DNA from: Rhodocaloribacter litoris
GTDB lineage: Bacteria; Bacteroidota; Rhodothermia; Rhodothermales; ISCAR-4553
DNA length: 64,000 nucleotides
NCBI RefSeq assembly: GCF_011682235.2
Contig: NZ_CP076718.1
Coordinates: 124,001 to 188,000 of the forward strand
Direction: 5' to 3'
Each line of letters opens with the position of its first letter. The first letter of the stretch is position 1. The notes below the pieces were generated by a model. That model was not told the DNA's origin. It searched no databases and saw only the letters and a program-made list of their open reading frames with translations. This document shows positions 32,988 through 44,350 of the stretch, in pieces. Position numbers and translations under genes: made by a program.

Positions 32988-33509
32988 GTGAACCTGAACG
33001 AGTACGAACAACACGTCCTCCGTCACCAGCACCGGGTCTACGGCCTGGCCTGCTACCTGCTGGGTAACCGGGAAGAAGCCGAGGATGTGACCCAGGAGGT
33101 GTTGCTACGGCTGTGGGACCATCGCCATGCGGTGGATCCGGAGCGGCTGCCGGGCTGGCTGCTGCGCGTCACCCGCAACGCCTGCATCGACACGCTGCGC
33201 CGTCGACAAACCTACCGGAGCATGATCCGGAACGATCCGGAGGGGGTAGACAGCGCTCCGGCACCGGAACGGCTCCCGGACGCCCACGCCGCCACCACCC
33301 TGTTCCAGGAGCACCTGATCCAGGCCCTGAACCAGCTCGACGAACCCTATCGCAGCATCGTGATTCTCCGCGAAATCCAGGCGTTGAAATACGAGGAGAT
33401 CAGCGAGGCGCTGGAGCTGCCGCTGAACACGGTGAAGGTGTACCTGCACCGTGCCCGCAAGACCCTTCGCAGGCTGTTAGAGGAGGTGTACGACCGTGCA
33501 ACCGTTTGA
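32988..33509 (+). CDS. ECF-type RNA polymerase sigma factor
   Basis: A 173-aa sigma-70 factor with only regions 2 and 4. Region 2 has GLACYLLGNREEAEDVTQEVLLRLW (about 20-45) and LLRVTRNACIDTLRRR; region 4 has LDEPYRSIVILREIQALKYEEISEALELPLNTVKVYLHRARKTL (about 112-160). I prefer the GTG at 32988 because the added eight codons from a TTG at 32964 are not family-like. It overlaps the anti-sigma gene by 14 bp, and a candidate self-directed promoter lies upstream. Confidence 0.93.
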   Translation: MNLNEYEQHVLRHQHRVYGLACYLLGNREEAEDVTQEVLLRLWDHRHAVDPERLPGWLLRVTRNACIDTLRRRQTYRSMIRNDPEGVDSAPAPERLPDAHAATTLFQEHLIQALNQLDEPYRSIVILREIQALKYEEISEALELPLNTVKVYLHRARKTLRRLLEEVYDRATV

Positions 33510-36156: not shown

Positions 36157-38232
36157 TCAAAACGTGTAGCGATGCCGGAGAACGACGTAACGATCCGTGT
36201 ACTCGGCCTCGCCCCGATAGGTGTCGTACCCGAGTTGCAGTTCCAGTTCCATGTCCCGGCGGAGACGGTAGACGCCGCGCAGCAGCAACCCGATGCGGTC
36301 AGATCCGGGCAGGACAAGCGGCTCTCCTCCCGGGGTCAGGAACAGCTCCGTCTCGGCCGTATGGGTGTTCTGCACGCCGGCCGAGACGTCCAGTTCGGGC
36401 CGGCGCAGCCGGTAGCCGATCAATCCGGAAAGCGTGGTCAGCTTCCGGAGCGTACCCTGATCGCCCGACGTGACCAGGAGATGGTTCAACTGCATGTTGA
36501 AGTAGAGCGGGAACGGGAACGTCTCGTTCAGGCCGGCCGTGATCACCCGCGTGACGTTGTCGAGGGCGGGCAGCAGCACATCGCGGCGGTCGGTGTAGGT
36601 GTAGGAGAGGCTCAGGCCGTGCTGGTAGTCTCCCGAACGCGCCAGATGGTACCCGCCCACGGAGAACGACCGCACCCGGGTGTCCGAGGCCGGGTCACCG
36701 GTGCCCTCGCGGGTGGTGCTGCGGTTGTGCAGGCGCAGGCTGGCGAAGAACCAGGTCGGACGGCGCCAGGGAGCAAGGGCAACCTGCCCGTAGAAAAGGT
36801 CGGCATTCAGGGAGGCACGGGTGGGGTCGTCACGCCGGGGGGTACCGTAGTGCTGGTAACGCAGCGTACCCGAGAGCCGGTCGCCGAGCAACTTGAACCG
36901 GTCCGTCAGGGTCAGCGAGCGCCGGTCGCTCAGCAGAAACGGGTTGCCGAAGGCGACGTAGGCCTCGCCCACCTGCCGCACTTCCGCCGTGAAGGTGTGC
37001 CCGCCGGCGGCGACCCGCCCGCGCAGGTACCAGGCCAGCGACGAAAGCCGGTCGGGGCGCAGCGGAACGGTGGTCGTGTTGAAGGTGAAGAGCCACGCGA
37101 GATCGGCAGGGTCCACCGGGATATGCGTGTCGAAGAGGGAATCGATGCGGGCCCTGGTTGCCACCCCGCGGGCAACGTCTTCGGTGGTGAGGCTGAGGGC
37201 CCCCCCGCCTTCGAAGTAGAGACGCCCCTGCAGGAGGCGCAGGCTCAGGCTGCTGCCGGCCACCAGGTTTTCCATCGGCGTGAGGCCGGTGGCCTCGGCC
37301 AGGTCTTCGGGCAGCGAGCCGGCATCGTCGCGGGCGCGGGCCACGTCGAGGTGCCAGAGCACGGAGCGCTCGCTGCCGACCCCGAGGCGCAGCGCCGTCA
37401 GGGTGCGCGTGAAGGCGGCCGGGCCGCTGATCGCGCCGGGCAGGCGTTCGGGCTCGATGCCGCGCCGGAGTTGCCCGTGCACCCCGGCCAGGCGCACGGG
37501 GTGGAGATAGAGTTCGGCCCGGATACCACGCGTGCGGGCCCCGTCGAGCATGAGCGGGTTGTAGAGCGGCGTGTTGTCTCCGAGGAGCAGGGTCAGGTGC
37601 TCGGAACGAACCCCGACGAGGAAGCGGTTGCGCGGCTGGGCCCGGGGATCCTCGTCGGTAGTGAGATAGAGCCGCACCGGGAACGTAAAGGCGCCATACC
37701 GCCCTTCCGCCTCCGCCTGCAGCACGTAGGTACGCAGCGGTTCCTGCCGCAGGTCGCGCCGCCCGGAAAAGTCGGAGGTGCGGGTGTCGAGGATGGTGCT
37801 GCCGGTGAAGTCGAACCGGCGGGCGGGTCGTGGGGCCGTGGCAACCGCCGCGTCTTCGGCCGCGCCTGCCACACGAAACGACCACTGGAGCGCCGGCAGG
37901 CTGCTTCCCCCGGCTTCCTGCCCCTCGATGTGAAGCGTATGCCGGCCGGCACCGAGCCGGCGCGCATACAGAAGCCGTACCGAGGTGTCAGAGACCTTTG
38001 CCTGCCGCGTCAGTTCCTGCCCATCGAGGTAGAGGCGAACCGAGGCGGGATCGAGGCGCTTTCCCGCCTGCAACGTCACCACGACGAACAGGCTCCCGTC
38101 CTGCACGAGGGTGTCCGGGGTGGGGCTGTGTATCCGCCACGGCCCGTCGACGGCCTGCGCCGCCGCCGGGCTGCTCCCGACCCATACCAGCCCCATCAAC
38201 AGGCTCACACCCTGAACGATCCTTAGCCGCAT
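36157..38232 (-). CDS. Large outer-membrane beta-barrel protein, unknown function
   Basis: A 691-aa exported protein. The signal peptide (about 1-26, SPAAAQ) is followed by an N-terminal beta-sandwich-like part (about 30-125) and a long set of alternating strands that end in RHRYTF; the C-terminal Phe is the usual BAM recognition end of outer-membrane barrels. I see no TonB box or plug signature, so a passive porin, assembly factor or surface protein are all possible. The start at 38232 is the Met of the signal peptide. Confidence 0.72.
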   Translation of the reverse strand: MRLRIVQGVSLLMGLVWVGSSPAAAQAVDGPWRIHSPTPDTLVQDGSLFVVVTLQAGKRLDPASVRLYLDGQELTRQAKVSDTSVRLLYARRLGAGRHTLHIEGQEAGGSSLPALQWSFRVAGAAEDAAVATAPRPARRFDFTGSTILDTRTSDFSGRRDLRQEPLRTYVLQAEAEGRYGAFTFPVRLYLTTDEDPRAQPRNRFLVGVRSEHLTLLLGDNTPLYNPLMLDGARTRGIRAELYLHPVRLAGVHGQLRRGIEPERLPGAISGPAAFTRTLTALRLGVGSERSVLWHLDVARARDDAGSLPEDLAEATGLTPMENLVAGSSLSLRLLQGRLYFEGGGALSLTTEDVARGVATRARIDSLFDTHIPVDPADLAWLFTFNTTTVPLRPDRLSSLAWYLRGRVAAGGHTFTAEVRQVGEAYVAFGNPFLLSDRRSLTLTDRFKLLGDRLSGTLRYQHYGTPRRDDPTRASLNADLFYGQVALAPWRRPTWFFASLRLHNRSTTREGTGDPASDTRVRSFSVGGYHLARSGDYQHGLSLSYTYTDRRDVLLPALDNVTRVITAGLNETFPFPLYFNMQLNHLLVTSGDQGTLRKLTTLSGLIGYRLRRPELDVSAGVQNTHTAETELFLTPGGEPLVLPGSDRIGLLLRGVYRLRRDMELELQLGYDTYRGEAEYTDRYVVLRHRYTF

Positions 38233-38508
38233 CGATAATCTTGCTCCGTGCAACGGCCGTGCAGGCACCTTCACAACACCGGCCGGTCTGGTGGGAATCT
38301 CAAGAAAACACAACCTGCTCGCTAAAGCATCGGGAGAATACGCACTGGACTTAAGCCCCGCAAAAGGGACCGGCCCTGCACCAATACCCTTCACACCATC
38401 TTCCTACCCAAAACCTCCACCCTTGATTTGTCTCCAGCGGCCGTACCTCCCCGGAGGAAGGACCTTCTCCGGCGCACAGCGACCGGACGGCCGGGCGGAC
38501 GACGCGGC
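38233..38508. other. Intergenic stretch without a gene
   Basis: The 350-bp gap between the barrel gene (start 38232) and the anti-sigma gene (stop 38584), both on the minus strand. I find no coding frame and no RNA fold that I can support here, other than the terminator at 38509-38549. It should hold the barrel gene's promoter. Confidence 0.4.
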
Positions 38509-38583: not shown

Positions 38584-39573
38584 CTACTCGACCCGCTGGA
38601 TCTTCTGGGTGCGGATGACCGGGCGTACGCCGCCCTCTTCGTAGAAGGCCACGACGTTCAGCGTATAGGTAACGCCGGGAGCAAAGACGGCGGGCGTGAC
38701 GGCCCACGCGTTCTCCGGGACGTCCTGCTCCAGAATGGGCCGGTTCTCGTCATCGTAGACGCGGACACGGTAGCCGCTCACGCGTTGCTCGCCGACGTCC
38801 GGCCAGGTAAAGACGATCTCTTCGTCCTCATTGCCGGTGATCACCAGCACGTCGTTGCGCAGGGTGGCACCGGGCAACCTGCCGCTCATGACCTGGTCCG
38901 GATTGGCGATGGCCTGCTGCACGGTCTGCAGAGAGATCACGTTCGAGGTCCGAAACAGGGGAAACACCAGGAGCACAGCCAGCATGCCAAGGGCCAGAGC
39001 CAGGGCCGGAGCCCGCAGGGGACCTCCAAACACCTGCTCGCTCCAGGCCGTCAGGCGTCGCCAGAGCGTGTGCAGGCGCTCCCTCGCCACGGTAAGCAGA
39101 GACGGCGGCGCGGTCGTCTCCGGGGCAAGCACCAGCTGAAGGGCCTCCTGCGGCGTACGATGGGCTGCCGTCACGGGGGTCTCCAGGTCATACACGGCGG
39201 CAGCGTACTGCTGGTAGCACGTATAACAGGCTATGATGTGGGCTCGCACGGCCTCCTGGTCCGCCGGTGCCAGGGTACCCTCGACGAAGGCAGCCAGGCG
39301 GACCTCGTCGAGGTGCTCCGGCGCCGCCGGATCTTCCTCCGGGGCCCCGTAAAGGTGTTCCTGCATCAGGTGTCGCCCGATCCCGCGAAGCGCCCGGACA
39401 CGCTCCAGTTCGGCCGCACACGTATTGCAGAACCGGACGTGCTTGTCGATGGCGCGCTGCACCGGCGGCTCATATCCCCCTTGCAGATACCGGATGACCT
39501 CTCCGACGGTCATCTGGATGATCGGGCACCCTGCCCGGACGGGTTGTTTCTTTTCCTGTGCCGTCATGATCAT
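38584..39573 (-). CDS. Membrane anti-sigma factor with two zinc fingers and an Fn3-like ectodomain
   Basis: A 329-aa protein. Two HxxxCxxC motifs, His45-Cys49-Cys52 and His112-Cys116-Cys119, form a tandem zf-HC2 region on the cytosolic side. One membrane helix lies at about 188-207. The outer part (about 225-329) has beta-strand patterns like an Fn3 domain (DEEIVFTWPDVGEQRVSGYRVRVYD). It overlaps the sigma gene by 4 bp (ATGA), so it is the cognate anti-sigma factor. A doubled zinc finger is unusual and may sense metal or redox state, or bind the long sigma factor at two points. Confidence 0.85.
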   Translation of the reverse strand: MIMTAQEKKQPVRAGCPIIQMTVGEVIRYLQGGYEPPVQRAIDKHVRFCNTCAAELERVRALRGIGRHLMQEHLYGAPEEDPAAPEHLDEVRLAAFVEGTLAPADQEAVRAHIIACYTCYQQYAAAVYDLETPVTAAHRTPQEALQLVLAPETTAPPSLLTVARERLHTLWRRLTAWSEQVFGGPLRAPALALALGMLAVLLVFPLFRTSNVISLQTVQQAIANPDQVMSGRLPGATLRNDVLVITGNEDEEIVFTWPDVGEQRVSGYRVRVYDDENRPILEQDVPENAWAVTPAVFAPGVTYTLNVVAFYEEGGVRPVIRTQKIQRVE

Positions 39574-40658
39574 GGTTCTGACCCAGCGTTGGAGGCGCGT
39601 GGGCCGGCCTGCCGGGAAGCAGGTTCCGGTCCGAGCCCCATGTTTTTCAGCAAGGCTTTCAACCCCTTCACCGATACCGAACCCCGCACATCGAGCGTGT
39701 CGTCGAGCCAGTTGTAGGCTTCCGCGAGCACCTCGGGAAAGCGTTCCCGGAGGCGCTCGCCCACGGTTTTCAAGATGCTGTCCACCGACTGATAGACGGT
39801 GTGGATGGTGACGTTTCCGCTCCGGGGTATCACCGGCAGCGTCACGCCGAGGGTTTCGCAGCGCTCCAGGATCGTTTTGGCGTCGAGCTCTTTGTCGAAC
39901 ACCATGTCGAGCAAGATCTTGTGATGCTCCGGCAGTTCGCTGATCAGCAGGCAGACCTTTTCCCAGATCTGGTCCACGGCGTGCTGCATCGGCAGCAGGC
40001 GCGGCCCGTCTCCCCGGTCCTGCATGCCGGTGTCGTCGAGCATGCCCTCGGGGTTGCGCAGGATCAGGTGCAGGTTGCCGTTGGTCATCAGGGCATGCGT
40101 GACCCGCTCCTGTGCCTGTTCGGTCTCCTCGATCGAGAGGCCCACCTTGCGGGCGATCGTCTCGGTCGGGCGCTGCATCACCATTTGCTTGAAGACCCGC
40201 TGGTCTTTCGCCGGGAGGCGCTGGATCTCCGGGGGCAGGGTGATCTGATCGACGCGCAGGCGGCGCCGGTGCCGGATCCAGTCGGTGCGCAGGTGCCCGT
40301 GAAGCACCGCCGAGACGAACGTGTCGAGCCGGGCGCGGCCGTCGTAGTGTTTCAGCTTGCCGGTGCTCTGGTCGCGCTTGTACAGATAGTCAAAGATGAA
40401 GGCGTAGATCTCCAGCCCTTCGTCACAGCTGCGCCGGTCGTCACCGGAAGGTTGCACGCCGCCGGCCGCCAGCGCGTGAAAGACGCAGAAGACCCCGCCG
40501 CGCTTGTGGGGGCACGTCTCGTAGCACAGCTGCCATGCCCGGCGCCACACCCGGTCGGAAAACCGTTCGACGAACTGGTTCCAGGCCTCGGCATCACCGT
40601 CAAAGATGCGTTGGACCCAGGACAGGTCGCCTTCGTGGGTCTTGGCGTCGGCAGTCAT
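39570..40658 (-). CDS. Long sigma-70-like factor with a Cys-rich insert
   Basis: A 362-aa sigma factor, about twice ECF length. Region 2 is recognisable at about 10-60 and 100-135 (FDGDAEAWNQFVERFSDRVWRRAW, DTFVSAVLHGHLRTDWIRHRRR), but it is split by an insert with Cys45, Cys49, His51, Cys58 and Cys78. A middle part (about 140-200) has a second helical region, and region 4 is at about 245-300 (ISELPEHHKILLDMVFDKELD, VTIHTVYQSVDSILKTVGERL). It pairs with the overlapping anti-sigma gene. The Cys set could bind zinc or respond to redox. I chose the Met at 40658. Confidence 0.78.
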   Translation of the reverse strand: MTADAKTHEGDLSWVQRIFDGDAEAWNQFVERFSDRVWRRAWQLCYETCPHKRGGVFCVFHALAAGGVQPSGDDRRSCDEGLEIYAFIFDYLYKRDQSTGKLKHYDGRARLDTFVSAVLHGHLRTDWIRHRRRLRVDQITLPPEIQRLPAKDQRVFKQMVMQRPTETIARKVGLSIEETEQAQERVTHALMTNGNLHLILRNPEGMLDDTGMQDRGDGPRLLPMQHAVDQIWEKVCLLISELPEHHKILLDMVFDKELDAKTILERCETLGVTLPVIPRSGNVTIHTVYQSVDSILKTVGERLRERFPEVLAEAYNWLDDTLDVRGSVSVKGLKALLKNMGLGPEPASRQAGPRASNAGSEP

Positions 40659-40895
40659 CGATGGGTCGGGTTGGCATGTGCAACAAAGCAGGGTGGGGTG
40701 TATGCACACGCGGTCAATATACGGACGGAGGAACCTTTTTTATTTAGCTCCGCCGGAGAATTTCGGCTGCGACACGAACAAAAACCACACACAGGCAGCC
40801 GCGACGGCCGTGGGTTCTCACGGCAGGTATCGCGCCCGGCCGCACCCCCTTAAACCGGGGCGGCACGATTCGGAACGGTCGCCGGCGGCTTTTGC

Positions 40896-43800
40896 CTACC
40901 GCAGGGCTTCCCTGAGGCGATCGAGGTTGACGGCGCCCCAGCCGAAGCGTGGATCTTTCTCCCCGGCTTCGGCACCGGCCGGCGGGTCGACGCAGGTTCG
41001 CAGGAGCTGAAGGGCCCGGCTTGCCGGCCAGTCCGGATGCCGGTCGAAGATACGGGCGAGGGCGGCGGCCACCCGGGGCGCGGCGAAAGAGGTTCCCACC
41101 GGCCACAGGGCTTCCACCTCGCCCCGGCGTACCACCCCGTCGGCGGCGAAGTCGGGCCGCAGGCGGCCGTCGTTGGTCGGTCCCTGCGAGCTGTGCTCGA
41201 AATCGACGGCGGCCACGGGCACCACGGTTTCCGGCCGCGCCACGGCGAGCCCGGAAGCCAGGCTGCTGCGGCCTTCGGGGGCGGGGTCGCTATCCTCGGG
41301 CCAGGGGTACATGTAGAGTTCGAAGTGCGGCGGGGCCGCTCCGGGTCTGAGCCGGTGCGCCCGCACCTCCAGCCGGTACGGTTGCGTGCCGGGATAGGGG
41401 GGTACAAAACTGCGGATCCGCTCGGTCGGTTTTTCGAACCGCCCCCTCCCCTGCCGGTTGACCGACCGCATCGGATAGCCGCCGGCGTCGTAGAGGGGCT
41501 GGCCGGTCTCGTCCAGGAGGTACAGGTCCAGATCCACCTCGGGCTGCTCCCAGTCGTCCCAGCTCAGGAGAAAGTTGTAGACCTCCTCTCCGGAGAGAGA
41601 GAGCGTGAGCCCGTTGCGTTCCGGTGTAAAGTTGTGGCGTCCGTCGCCATCCGGGTCCGAGAAGCGCCCTTCCCAGTGGCTGCGGGCGAAGTTGCCGGCG
41701 GCAGCCACCAGCACCGCCCGTTCCCCGAGCATCTCGGCGAGGTTGGGCCCGAAGAGATAGCCGGTCCCGTCGTAGTGATCGTAGGCATCCATCCAGGAAA
41801 CCGAGCTGGTGGCAACGCGCACGCCGAGCGAGTCCACGGCATAGCGCAGGGCGGCGCGAAATTCGAGCTCCGTTTCGAAGTTGAACAGGTGGAGGCGGCT
41901 CGCCTCCGGAAGGGTTTCGATCAGGGCCTGCACGGTGGTGAGGCCGTGTGCGGCGGCCTCGGGGCTCCGCCCGTCGAGGCGGCGGTCGCGCCGGAACGAG
42001 TACAGCGCGTACTCGACGCCTTCGGCTTCGAGCAGGCTGCGGAGACGCGGCACGTCGTAGCCGAACTCGAAGACGGCCACGCCGACCCCGGACGGATTCG
42101 ATGCCGGCCGGGCCTCCGCGACGGTCCGGCGTGCCGGGGTGGGCGCGGGCGGGCGCGTGGCCTCGTGCGCCTCCTCCCGCCCGGAGAACCAGGGGGGAGC
42201 CGGCAGGGTCAGCAGGCGCAGGAAAGGCAATTGCACCAGGGCTGGCAGGCTGCTCACGGGCACGGAAAGCTGCAGCCAGGGCCCGTCTTCCAGGTCGATC
42301 TGGACGTTCGTGTTGAGCAGGGCCTGCCGGTCGAGCGGGGCCAGCGCCGGGGTGCGCAGCTCGGCCAGCAGCGTGAGGGTCACCTCCAGCTGTCCCTGCC
42401 GGAGGGCATTGTCCCAGGCCTGGCGGAGATCCCAGCCCACGTTGGCCTGGGGCGCCATCGTGAAGCGTACCGGTGCCGAACGGGCCAGCAGGTTGTCTTC
42501 CGGATCGAGAACGTCGACCTGCACAGCGTAGAGACGGCCCGGTTCCAGCAGCGGAGCCCCCGGCGGATAGTACATCGACGTGGCCTGCCGCACCGTCTGC
42601 ACGAGCACCGGCGGCACGTCCGGCACCTCCTCGGCCGGATACCCGGCCTCTACCGGGAAGACGCTGACGCGATACCGCAGCGCATCGGCCGAATCGGCCC
42701 CGGCCACCTGCCAGACGAAGTGGACACCGGGCGCGACGACCGGCTGTTCCTCCACCGGGAAGACGATACGCACCCCGAGCGCCCGCGTGGGATCCCCGGG
42801 AACGCCCCCGGTGGTGTCGGCGGCGGCCGGACCGGCCGCCAGGGTGTCGTTGGCGGCGACGACAGCTTCTCCGGGGCGTGTGTCGGGGACTTCGATGAAA
42901 ACCGTCGCGTAATCCATCACCTCGCCGGCGCGGGCCGTGACGGCCACGACCCCGGGCTGCTCCCCGGCCGTGAACCGCCCTTCCTCATCGATGGCACCGG
43001 CCCCGAGCGGTTGCAGGCTCCACGTCACCCGCACCCCGGGCAGGAGCAGGTCGGCGGCGTCGTAGGCCGCCGCACGAAAGAGGAACGTACCGCCGGGCGG
43101 CAGCGTGATCTCCTGCGGGCTGACCTCCAGGCGGGCCACCCCCTCACCGGCAACCCCGGCCGAAAGCACCGGCGGCAACCCGTCCGACGCCGCCACGTTC
43201 AGATCCTCCCTCGCCTCCACGACGAACCAGTACATCTCGCTCGGCTGCACCAGCGGGCCCGCGGCGGTCTCCACAATGGCCTCCACCTGCCAGGCATACG
43301 TCACCCCGGGGCGCAGGGCCTCGGCGAAGCTCGGGTAGGGCAGCACGGTCGCCGTCATGAGGCTGTCCCGGACGGCAAAGACCGGCCGGCTGCCGGCCAC
43401 GTCTTCGGGCGAACGCTGGTGAGGTCGCACCTCGTAGAGGGCAAAGTTGAACCGTGCGGCGTCCGAGAGCCACTGGAAGATGGGGAACGGCGTCGCCACC
43501 ACGTCCGGCTCCTGCCCGAAGGGCGTGCCTGGCCCCACGAGATCGAGTTGCCGCCCGGGGTTCTCCGTCACGATGACCCCTTCGCCCTCGGCGACCAGGG
43601 CCCCGCCCCCCGGCCCGGCCTCGTCGAACACCCGCACCTCGAAGACGTATTCGTCCGCCGGCAGCACATTGCGCTCCAGAGCCGTCTTCACCAGATCGGT
43701 ACCGGCGTCGGCGACCTCGTACGTCTCGATGTCCCGGTTCGTGACCGGCACGACGGCGAAGGGCGCTACACGGCCCAGCCGCTTCGTGCCGGTGACGAGC

Positions 43801-44075
43801 ACCCCGAACCGGGCCGAACGGACGTGGACTTCCAGGCGCAGATCCCGTTCCTGCTCGTCGTTGATCACGGTGGCGTGCAAGAAAACCGGCGCCCGCTCCG
43901 GACGGAGCGGGTCGAAGTCGGAGAGGCGCAGCAGTTGCACGCTCACCGTACGCACTTCCACCATCACCGCCCCCTGGGCCCGGGCTGCGGGCACCACCAC
44001 GTCCCCCGGCAGGCCGGCGAGCAAAACCACCAGCCCGCCCAGGAGGCAGGCACAAAGATGACGAACAGGAATCAT
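40896..44075 (-). CDS. Exported subtilase-like protein with substituted catalytic Asp
   Basis: A 1059-aa exported protein: a signal peptide (about 1-35), a long N-terminal part with Fn3/Ig-like and Big_2-like repeats (about 36-600; VARLEVSPQEITLPPGG), and a C-terminal S8 peptidase domain. His710 (AAAHGLTTVQAL), the oxyanion Asn (VAAAGNFARSHW) and Ser996 (VGTSFAAPRVAAAL) fit the family. The Asp position reads Glu670 (VAVFEFGYD where VAVIDxGxD is usual). An inserted jelly-roll-like region (about 765-900; LLSWDDWEQPEVDLDLYLLD) is typical of one subtilase subgroup. It may be weakened, altered or inactive. The sigma gene lies 237 bp downstream. Confidence 0.82.
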   Translation of the reverse strand: MIPVRHLCACLLGGLVVLLAGLPGDVVVPAARAQGAVMVEVRTVSVQLLRLSDFDPLRPERAPVFLHATVINDEQERDLRLEVHVRSARFGVLVTGTKRLGRVAPFAVVPVTNRDIETYEVADAGTDLVKTALERNVLPADEYVFEVRVFDEAGPGGGALVAEGEGVIVTENPGRQLDLVGPGTPFGQEPDVVATPFPIFQWLSDAARFNFALYEVRPHQRSPEDVAGSRPVFAVRDSLMTATVLPYPSFAEALRPGVTYAWQVEAIVETAAGPLVQPSEMYWFVVEAREDLNVAASDGLPPVLSAGVAGEGVARLEVSPQEITLPPGGTFLFRAAAYDAADLLLPGVRVTWSLQPLGAGAIDEEGRFTAGEQPGVVAVTARAGEVMDYATVFIEVPDTRPGEAVVAANDTLAAGPAAADTTGGVPGDPTRALGVRIVFPVEEQPVVAPGVHFVWQVAGADSADALRYRVSVFPVEAGYPAEEVPDVPPVLVQTVRQATSMYYPPGAPLLEPGRLYAVQVDVLDPEDNLLARSAPVRFTMAPQANVGWDLRQAWDNALRQGQLEVTLTLLAELRTPALAPLDRQALLNTNVQIDLEDGPWLQLSVPVSSLPALVQLPFLRLLTLPAPPWFSGREEAHEATRPPAPTPARRTVAEARPASNPSGVGVAVFEFGYDVPRLRSLLEAEGVEYALYSFRRDRRLDGRSPEAAAHGLTTVQALIETLPEASRLHLFNFETELEFRAALRYAVDSLGVRVATSSVSWMDAYDHYDGTGYLFGPNLAEMLGERAVLVAAAGNFARSHWEGRFSDPDGDGRHNFTPERNGLTLSLSGEEVYNFLLSWDDWEQPEVDLDLYLLDETGQPLYDAGGYPMRSVNRQGRGRFEKPTERIRSFVPPYPGTQPYRLEVRAHRLRPGAAPPHFELYMYPWPEDSDPAPEGRSSLASGLAVARPETVVPVAAVDFEHSSQGPTNDGRLRPDFAADGVVRRGEVEALWPVGTSFAAPRVAAALARIFDRHPDWPASRALQLLRTCVDPPAGAEAGEKDPRFGWGAVNLDRLREALR

Positions 44076-44350
44076 CAAGGATCGCCTTCGACACATACAA
44101 CAAAACGGGTCGTCCCAACCGAACCACCCCGCACCGGTGAGACAATCCCGCGCGGGAGTCAGGACGGCAGGTTCACCCGGGTTCAGTTGCCATCAACCGG
44201 CTTTTTCAAGGATCGAACCATCATTTTACATGGGCTCCGTTCCCAACTTTCCCGTTCCTCCGGAACATGTTGCCGTAATGTTCGGGAATAAAGGGCGTAT
44301 TGGCAACCAGACGCCCGCTGCGTTTCACCACCCGGAGGCCCGCAACGAAC

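Follow-up and report, generated by a model that had tools for sequence, protein, structure and literature searches.

ECF sigma factors that work with class I anti-sigma domains are two-domain proteins. About 56% of the class I anti-sigma domains carry a zinc motif, which may be structural (PMC7406223). Some sigma factors bear cysteine clusters of their own. CorE and CorE2 of Myxococcus xanthus (ECF238, formerly ECF44) have C-terminal cysteine-rich domains, as well as an extra CXC in the linker between sigma2 and sigma4, and no anti-sigma factor (PMC8999054). In OrbS of Burkholderia cenocepacia, the cluster Cys196-X2-Cys-X3-Cys-X5-Cys is placed at the C-terminus, and Fe(II) acting through it blocks the binding to core RNA polymerase (PMC9023288). 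In the sigma factors with on-board metal sensing that we found described, the site is C-terminal. No metal site in sigma region 2 is described in the passages considered from the three papers, and no sigma factor with a metal-binding region 2 insert was recognised in the open-licence literature, covered mostly as titles and abstract openings.

The gene studied here belongs to Rhodocaloribacter litoris, whose genome consists of one contig of 4.50 Mb (NZ_CP076718.1). It lies in the window, i.e., the whole stretch of 64,000 nucleotides that was analysed (contig positions 124,001 to 188,000, forward strand), and the coordinates given below are those of the window unless otherwise stated. Counting the own genome in each case, orthologs were found in 8 of the 60 relatives searched, in 9/114 genomes of the order and in 9/244 genomes of the class, all of them within one order. 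The single genome with an ortholog in a phylum sample of 394 was the own genome, and a tblastn search of plasmids and phages found no ortholog. The distinct ortholog set is formed by nine members, in which the loci L017-L022 are counted once.

Identity of the Putative Sigma Factor Gene

The gene is located at 39570..40658 on the minus strand and encodes a protein of 362 aa. Its coordinates and frame, together with the residues C45, C49, H51, C58 and C78, had been read correctly in the initial annotation. The ATG at 40658 is favoured as the start over an upstream in-frame GTG because of the spacing of the promoter-like motif described below. The extension from that GTG (40659-40709, minus strand) would add 17 residues with several extra cysteines, MCIHPTLLCCTCQPDPS.

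We take the protein as a very divergent, probable member of the sigma-70 superfamily; its own similarities to sigma models lie below every curated cut-off. The Pfam scan matched no family, and the protein is not among the 20 own-genome matches of Pfam Sigma70_r2. Two NCBIfam models are reached under their thresholds, namely sigma70-ECF TIGR02937 with 16.7 bits (E 0.0043, residues 25-263, cut-off 42.9) and FliA_WhiG with 18 bits (E 0.0019, residues 157-264, cut-off 189.6). TIGR02937 is also matched weakly by 8/8 orthologs of the alignment A1 (best E 1.3e-4), and FliA_WhiG by seven of these eight. When Pfam was run on eight orthologs with E-values up to 5, one of them reached Sigma70_r4_2 (E 0.093) and one Sigma70_r4 (E 0.21), amid unrelated chance matches. 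The best PDB profile matches of the protein are FliA chains (residues 210-265), which are weak, with E-values of 0.011-0.016 that exceed the usual threshold. Another profile, built from the own-genome sigma factors and E. coli RpoE, matched 8/8 orthologs at E 1e-6 to 0.007, these being local E-values for a tiny database of the eight ortholog sequences only, with the filters off. Locus L006 of the window (33015-33209, plus strand), at a distance of about 6 kb, encodes a sigma factor with a normal Sigma70_r2 domain.

The protein had been described as an ECF factor of about twice the usual size. In favour of the ECF assignment is the co-encoded anti-sigma factor, which is frequent for ECF factors although not universal, and which is here a zf-HC2 protein whose gene overlaps by 4 bases. 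The assignment is nevertheless doubtful, as the protein has no Pfam Sigma70_r2 match, stays under the TIGR02937 cut-off and has an extra central HTH of about 60 residues instead of sigma2 and sigma4 modules only. Regarding the size, a larger share of the extra length comes from this central HTH module than from the Cys/His insert.

The Cys/His Insert and Its Likely Position

The Cys/His insert with its flanking cysteines comprises residues 45-78 (40425..40526, minus strand, as are all the features of this section placed in the window). In the nine-row alignment, C45, C49, C58, H61 and C78 are invariant in 9/9 orthologs, as they also are in the eight-row alignment A1. The most divergent ortholog, found in genome G429 with 49% identity, retains all five ligands although its insert is longer by two residues. 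Orthologs without the cysteines had been named beforehand as what would refute the idea, and no Cys-less ortholog was found. The histidine singled out at first does not hold in the same way: H51 is Tyr in 2/9 orthologs and is aligned in G429 only via a gap, and it is H61, missed in that reading, that is invariant. The only other cysteines of the protein, C236 and C267, vary among the nine orthologs, and in the own-genome Sigma70_r2 proteins, 20 in number, the initial 120 residues of the examined stretch contain two Cys at most. Therefore, we think that the Cys/His set is more than chance. The cluster is at residues 45-78 and not at the C-terminus, where CorE and OrbS have theirs. In total, 110/362 positions are invariant in the nine rows, with a mean pairwise identity of 0.64 in the insert, 0.66 in region 2.1, 0.73 in regions 2.2-2.4, 0.59 in the central module and 0.57 in sigma4.

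Region 2.1 (residues 9-44; 40527..40634) and regions 2.2-2.4 (residues 79-135; 40254..40424) were delimited with two profile alignments, one to the own-genome sigma factors and the other to a cysteine-free family. The latter is represented in the own genome by a 264-aa sigma protein (genome positions 467528-468319, minus strand; loci L105 and L109), which has neither cysteines nor the insert. In this protein, sigma2 precedes two HTH modules of sigma4-like type, both of which match sigma-70 models; the protein reaches TIGR02937 with 84.6 bits, over the cut-off, in three stretches, and it has strong matches in 18/60 relatives. The family profile was built from 17 aligned sequences (loci L109-L125), and its profile-profile alignment with the sigma factor is weak (E 3.6e-4, probability 37%). 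With default settings the alignment covers residues 78-267, with looser options it runs colinear over residues 9-308, and the gap in region 2 appears only with the looser options. In that gap, 30 residues of the sigma factor have no counterpart in the cysteine-free family, which are 46-71 together with 73-76, or 47-76 when the alignment is global. The own-genome sigma profile matches residues ~6-44 and ~102-135 and leaves those between them unmatched. Since the weak 37% alignment agrees with this second profile, the insert is most likely placed where helix 2.1 ends and helix 2.2 begins, flanked at its base by C45 and C78. As far as the weak alignment indicates, the 30 residues fall where the main core-binding helix begins and not between the core-binding and the -10-binding helices, where the insert had originally been located.

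The central HTH module (~residues 140-200; 40059..40241) was defined by the FliA/WhiG match at 157-264 and by its colinearity with the cysteine-free family, and sigma4 (~residues 223-306; 39741..39992) by the profile alignments and the weak FliA PDB match at 210-265. The HTH of sigma4 contains 13 extra residues (~272-285), which is the largest gap outside region 2 with respect to the cysteine-free family. The extra length of the protein was first attributed to sigma3, as suggested by the FliA match, and this was dropped for a second sigma4-like HTH. The latter is preferred because the central module of the colinear cysteine-free family matches the part of the FliA model that, from the model coordinates, we take to be region 4; the choice comes from that family, as the target alone does not decide it. 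The C-terminal tail (residues 307-345; 39624..39740) has 8/39 positions invariant in the nine rows. It carries a SVSVKGLKALLKNMG-type motif at residues 327-341 (39636-39680), which shows small changes in the eight closer orthologs and is partial in G429. AlphaFold gave no usable model of the insert, either with the full-length sigma factor (seven sequences; pLDDT 55.4, pTM 0.36) or with residues 1-140 (pLDDT 42.6), and a Foldseek search with the weak full-length model found no match at E <= 0.001.

The Putative Anti-Sigma Partner and the Gene Neighbourhood

The overlapping gene at 38584..39573 (minus strand, 4 bases shared with the sigma gene) encodes a protein of 329 aa that is probably a membrane-bound anti-sigma factor. 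It matches zf-HC2 with 24.4 bits (cut-off 22.2) and contains the HxxxCxxC signature of the zinc-binding class I anti-sigma factors. Eight anti-sigma proteins were compared (own, L017, L019-L022, G026 and G429), the ninth, of G016 (short contig), being left out. The first zinc motif, made of C16, H45, C49 and C52 (39418..39528, minus strand), has the form CP...M - H-x3-C-x2-C and is kept in 8/8. Two HxxxCxxC fingers had been reported for the partner, and both are there in the own protein, but the second (residues 112-119; 39217..39240, minus strand) is kept in 4/8, being present in own, L017, G026 and G429 and missing in L019-L022. A probable membrane helix is found at ~residues 188-207 (38953..39012, minus strand), with a hydropathy of 2.43 over 19 residues. 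In all six anti-sigma proteins tested, a hydrophobic segment is found close to residue 180 (hydropathy 1.77-2.43 over 19 residues), so membrane anchoring of the anti-sigma factor is likely. The C-terminal domain is fibronectin-III-like (38629..38841, minus strand), matching PF00041 at E 7.7e-5 with 23.3 bits, just under the cut-off of 25.

Upstream of the sigma gene there is an S8 subtilase-like protein of 1066 aa (40896..44096, minus strand), which matches PF00082 over the cut-off. The downstream neighbour is an ORF of 745 aa (36157..38394, minus strand) without a Pfam family, judged by eye to be probably of outer-membrane type, and a similar long ORF is present in related loci. The order subtilase, sigma factor, anti-sigma factor and outer-membrane-type protein, as viewed by eye, is complete in the own genome, L019, L020 and L139, and L017 and L021 show the same order with the subtilase truncated at the edge of the contig. 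In L022, the anti-sigma gene is followed by a gene of the opposite strand that does not resemble the outer-membrane-type protein, and in G429 only subtilase, sigma factor and anti-sigma factor are visible. The Pfam scan of the seven window ORFs around the sigma gene showed no metal-handling or redox gene.

Promoter-Like Motif and Predicted Targets

A promoter-like motif, CTAAAT-N13-CCGTCC, is located 64 bp before the sigma ATG (40723..40747, minus strand). In the general form C-T-[GAT]-A-A-[AT]-N13-CCGTCC, it is found 23-74 bp before the ATG in 8/9 ortholog genes and is absent in G429. A weaker copy, of score 13.7, lies 65 bp before the ATG of the subtilase gene (44162..44186, minus strand), and the sites before the sigma and the subtilase genes are the only two that reach 13.7 on both strands of the window. 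Subtilase genes have such sites 41-66 bp before their start in three of the six loci, i.e., own (13.7), L020 (17.7) and L022 (17.9). L019 has a weak site (score 10.3), and no upstream site of score at least 10 was found for the subtilase genes of L139 (G026) and L140 (G429).

The exact pattern CTKAAW-N13-CCGTCC gives 48 sites against 13 of the reversed pattern in the nine sigma-bearing genomes, and 12 against 11 in nine genomes without the sigma factor that were hand-picked from the same order. Over genomes this enrichment is modest, with a Fisher p of 0.029, or 0.059 without the seven sigma-gene sites; scaled to the rounded amount of DNA, 41/53 sites are in the sigma-bearing set (p 7e-6). G002 alone supplies 14/48 of the exact sites, and of the 30 loci inspected many have the motif inside a long open frame. 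The own genome shows no enrichment, either of the exact motif (4 sites against 3 reversed) or with one mismatch allowed (66 against 82). As the one-mismatch motif is not enriched, no own-genome regulon is claimed beyond the sigma and subtilase genes.

The motif sites at L048 and L060 precede related genes for S8-protease lipoproteins, of which a protein search gave 20 in 7/9 sigma-bearing genomes. A site of score at least 16 is present within 800 bp upstream of 6/20 of these genes, which are those of G016 (3/3) and G026 (3/6), and of 0 of the remaining 11 outside both genomes. The other 14/20 have no upstream site of at least 16; some of the upstream stretches searched end at contig edges. The background rate of such scores is 0.6% per 830-bp stretch (4000 stretches, from which those with listed motif sites were excluded). 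The enrichment has p 2e-9 for 6/20, a count that includes the two genes that first suggested the family, and p 4e-6 without them (4/18). The motif-bearing S8-protease lipoproteins, at L076, L077, L083, L088, L089 and L093, come from G016 and G026 only, which represent two genera. By eye they show an I9-like propeptide, and the motif precedes the matched start by ~135-175 bp. The motif seems to be the promoter of this sigma factor, which would itself control its own gene and the secreted protease genes.

Proposed Mechanism and Alternatives

We think, with a probability of about one half, that the insert is a structural or docking metal knuckle in a divergent sigma factor of the order sigma2, central HTH and sigma4, with a membrane anti-sigma factor and with promoters at its own gene and at S8-protease genes. 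The loop of about 30 residues between 2.1 and 2.2 would be a small metal-binding knuckle, with zinc as the most likely metal and with C45, C49, C58 and H61 and/or C78 as ligands. C45 and C78 are the two outer cysteines, at the foot of the loop, so that a metal held there would tie the end of helix 2.1 to the beginning of helix 2.2. Helix 2.2 docks on the beta-prime clamp helices of RNA polymerase. In this structural or docking role, which is the most likely one, the knuckle would shape the face of sigma2 that contacts the core enzyme and/or the anti-sigma factor. The latter probably has its anchor in the inner membrane and would keep the sigma factor bound until its release by an envelope signal. 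The free sigma factor would then direct transcription at CTgAAw-N13-CCGTCC promoters, located before its own gene and before genes for secreted or surface S8 proteases, so that the predicted regulon is one of surface proteolysis.

The five invariant ligands would also suit the main rival reading, an on-board metal or redox sensor, in which the metal of the insert or the oxidation of its thiols switches core binding and the zinc motif of the anti-sigma factor acts as a second sensor. CorE/CorE2 and OrbS give precedents by analogy, since their cysteine clusters alter activity and, in OrbS, core binding. We find the sensor less likely than the knuckle, given that no metal-handling or redox gene appears in the seven ORFs scanned, with the related loci viewed by eye, and that the predicted targets are proteases. 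Moreover, the anti-sigma factor is probably membrane-bound, whereas the sigma factors with regulatory extensions that are reviewed in PMC8999054 lack an anti-sigma factor. The initial annotation had proposed a metal- or redox-sensitive pair, and this finds no support in a partner that has lost the second finger in 4/8 and that has a probable membrane helix and a fibronectin-III-like domain, next to neighbours of protease and outer-membrane type. The insert and its base contain precisely four invariant Cys plus a single invariant His, which brings to mind an iron-sulfur cluster and an oxygen- or NO-responsive sigma factor. This is quite improbable, as the spacing CxxxC-x8-CxxH looks more like that of a zinc knuckle, no functional link was seen and no such sigma factor was found in the open-licence literature, covered mostly as titles and abstract openings.

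The metal binding of the insert is itself a prediction from the sequence, and the cysteines might hold the loop by packing or disulfides, metal-free; in cytoplasmic proteins, a short loop with a conserved CCCH(C) set would usually mark a metal site, which makes this improbable. A degenerate paralog that merely titrates the anti-sigma factor and is no longer an active sigma factor would be in line with a protein that is under all curated cut-offs and has no Pfam match. Nevertheless, regions 2.2-2.4 show the highest pairwise identity (0.73) and the promoter-like motif is common to its own gene and to other genes, so we consider such a paralog highly improbable.

If the metal-ligand set between 2.1 and 2.2 is real, it would place a metal site on the surface that grips RNA polymerase, where a small change could switch a sigma factor. 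A bolder extension is that no earlier sigma factor had a metal or redox switch inside the core-binding sigma2 and that this one is the first, in which metal loading or loss would clamp or free the start of helix 2.2 and gate the joining of RNA polymerase, atop the control by the membrane anti-sigma factor; in our opinion this is unlikely. Similar factors may be annotated as hypothetical, because the protein escapes Pfam Sigma70_r2, perhaps owing to the insert.

Comparison with Known Systems

With FliA/WhiG, the sigma factor shares a local match at residues 157-264 and its weak best matches to solved structures, although the 18 bits obtained are far from the cut-off of 189.6, and we know of no insert in the sigma2 of FliA/WhiG. 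The cysteine-free 264-aa family has the same order of sigma2, central HTH and sigma4, without the insert between 2.1 and 2.2. The ECF systems with class I zinc anti-sigma factors have, as here, a neighbouring gene for an HxxxCxxC anti-sigma factor. In the passages considered from PMC7406223, it is the anti-sigma factor that bears the zinc motif, whereas here a cysteine set is also present in the sigma factor. An on-board cysteine cluster is what this protein has in common with CorE/CorE2 and with OrbS. In CorE/CorE2 the cysteines are in the C-terminal domain and in the linker, in OrbS the cluster is at the C-terminus, and in the sigma factor described here it is at residues 45-78, within sigma2, and is accompanied by an anti-sigma factor.
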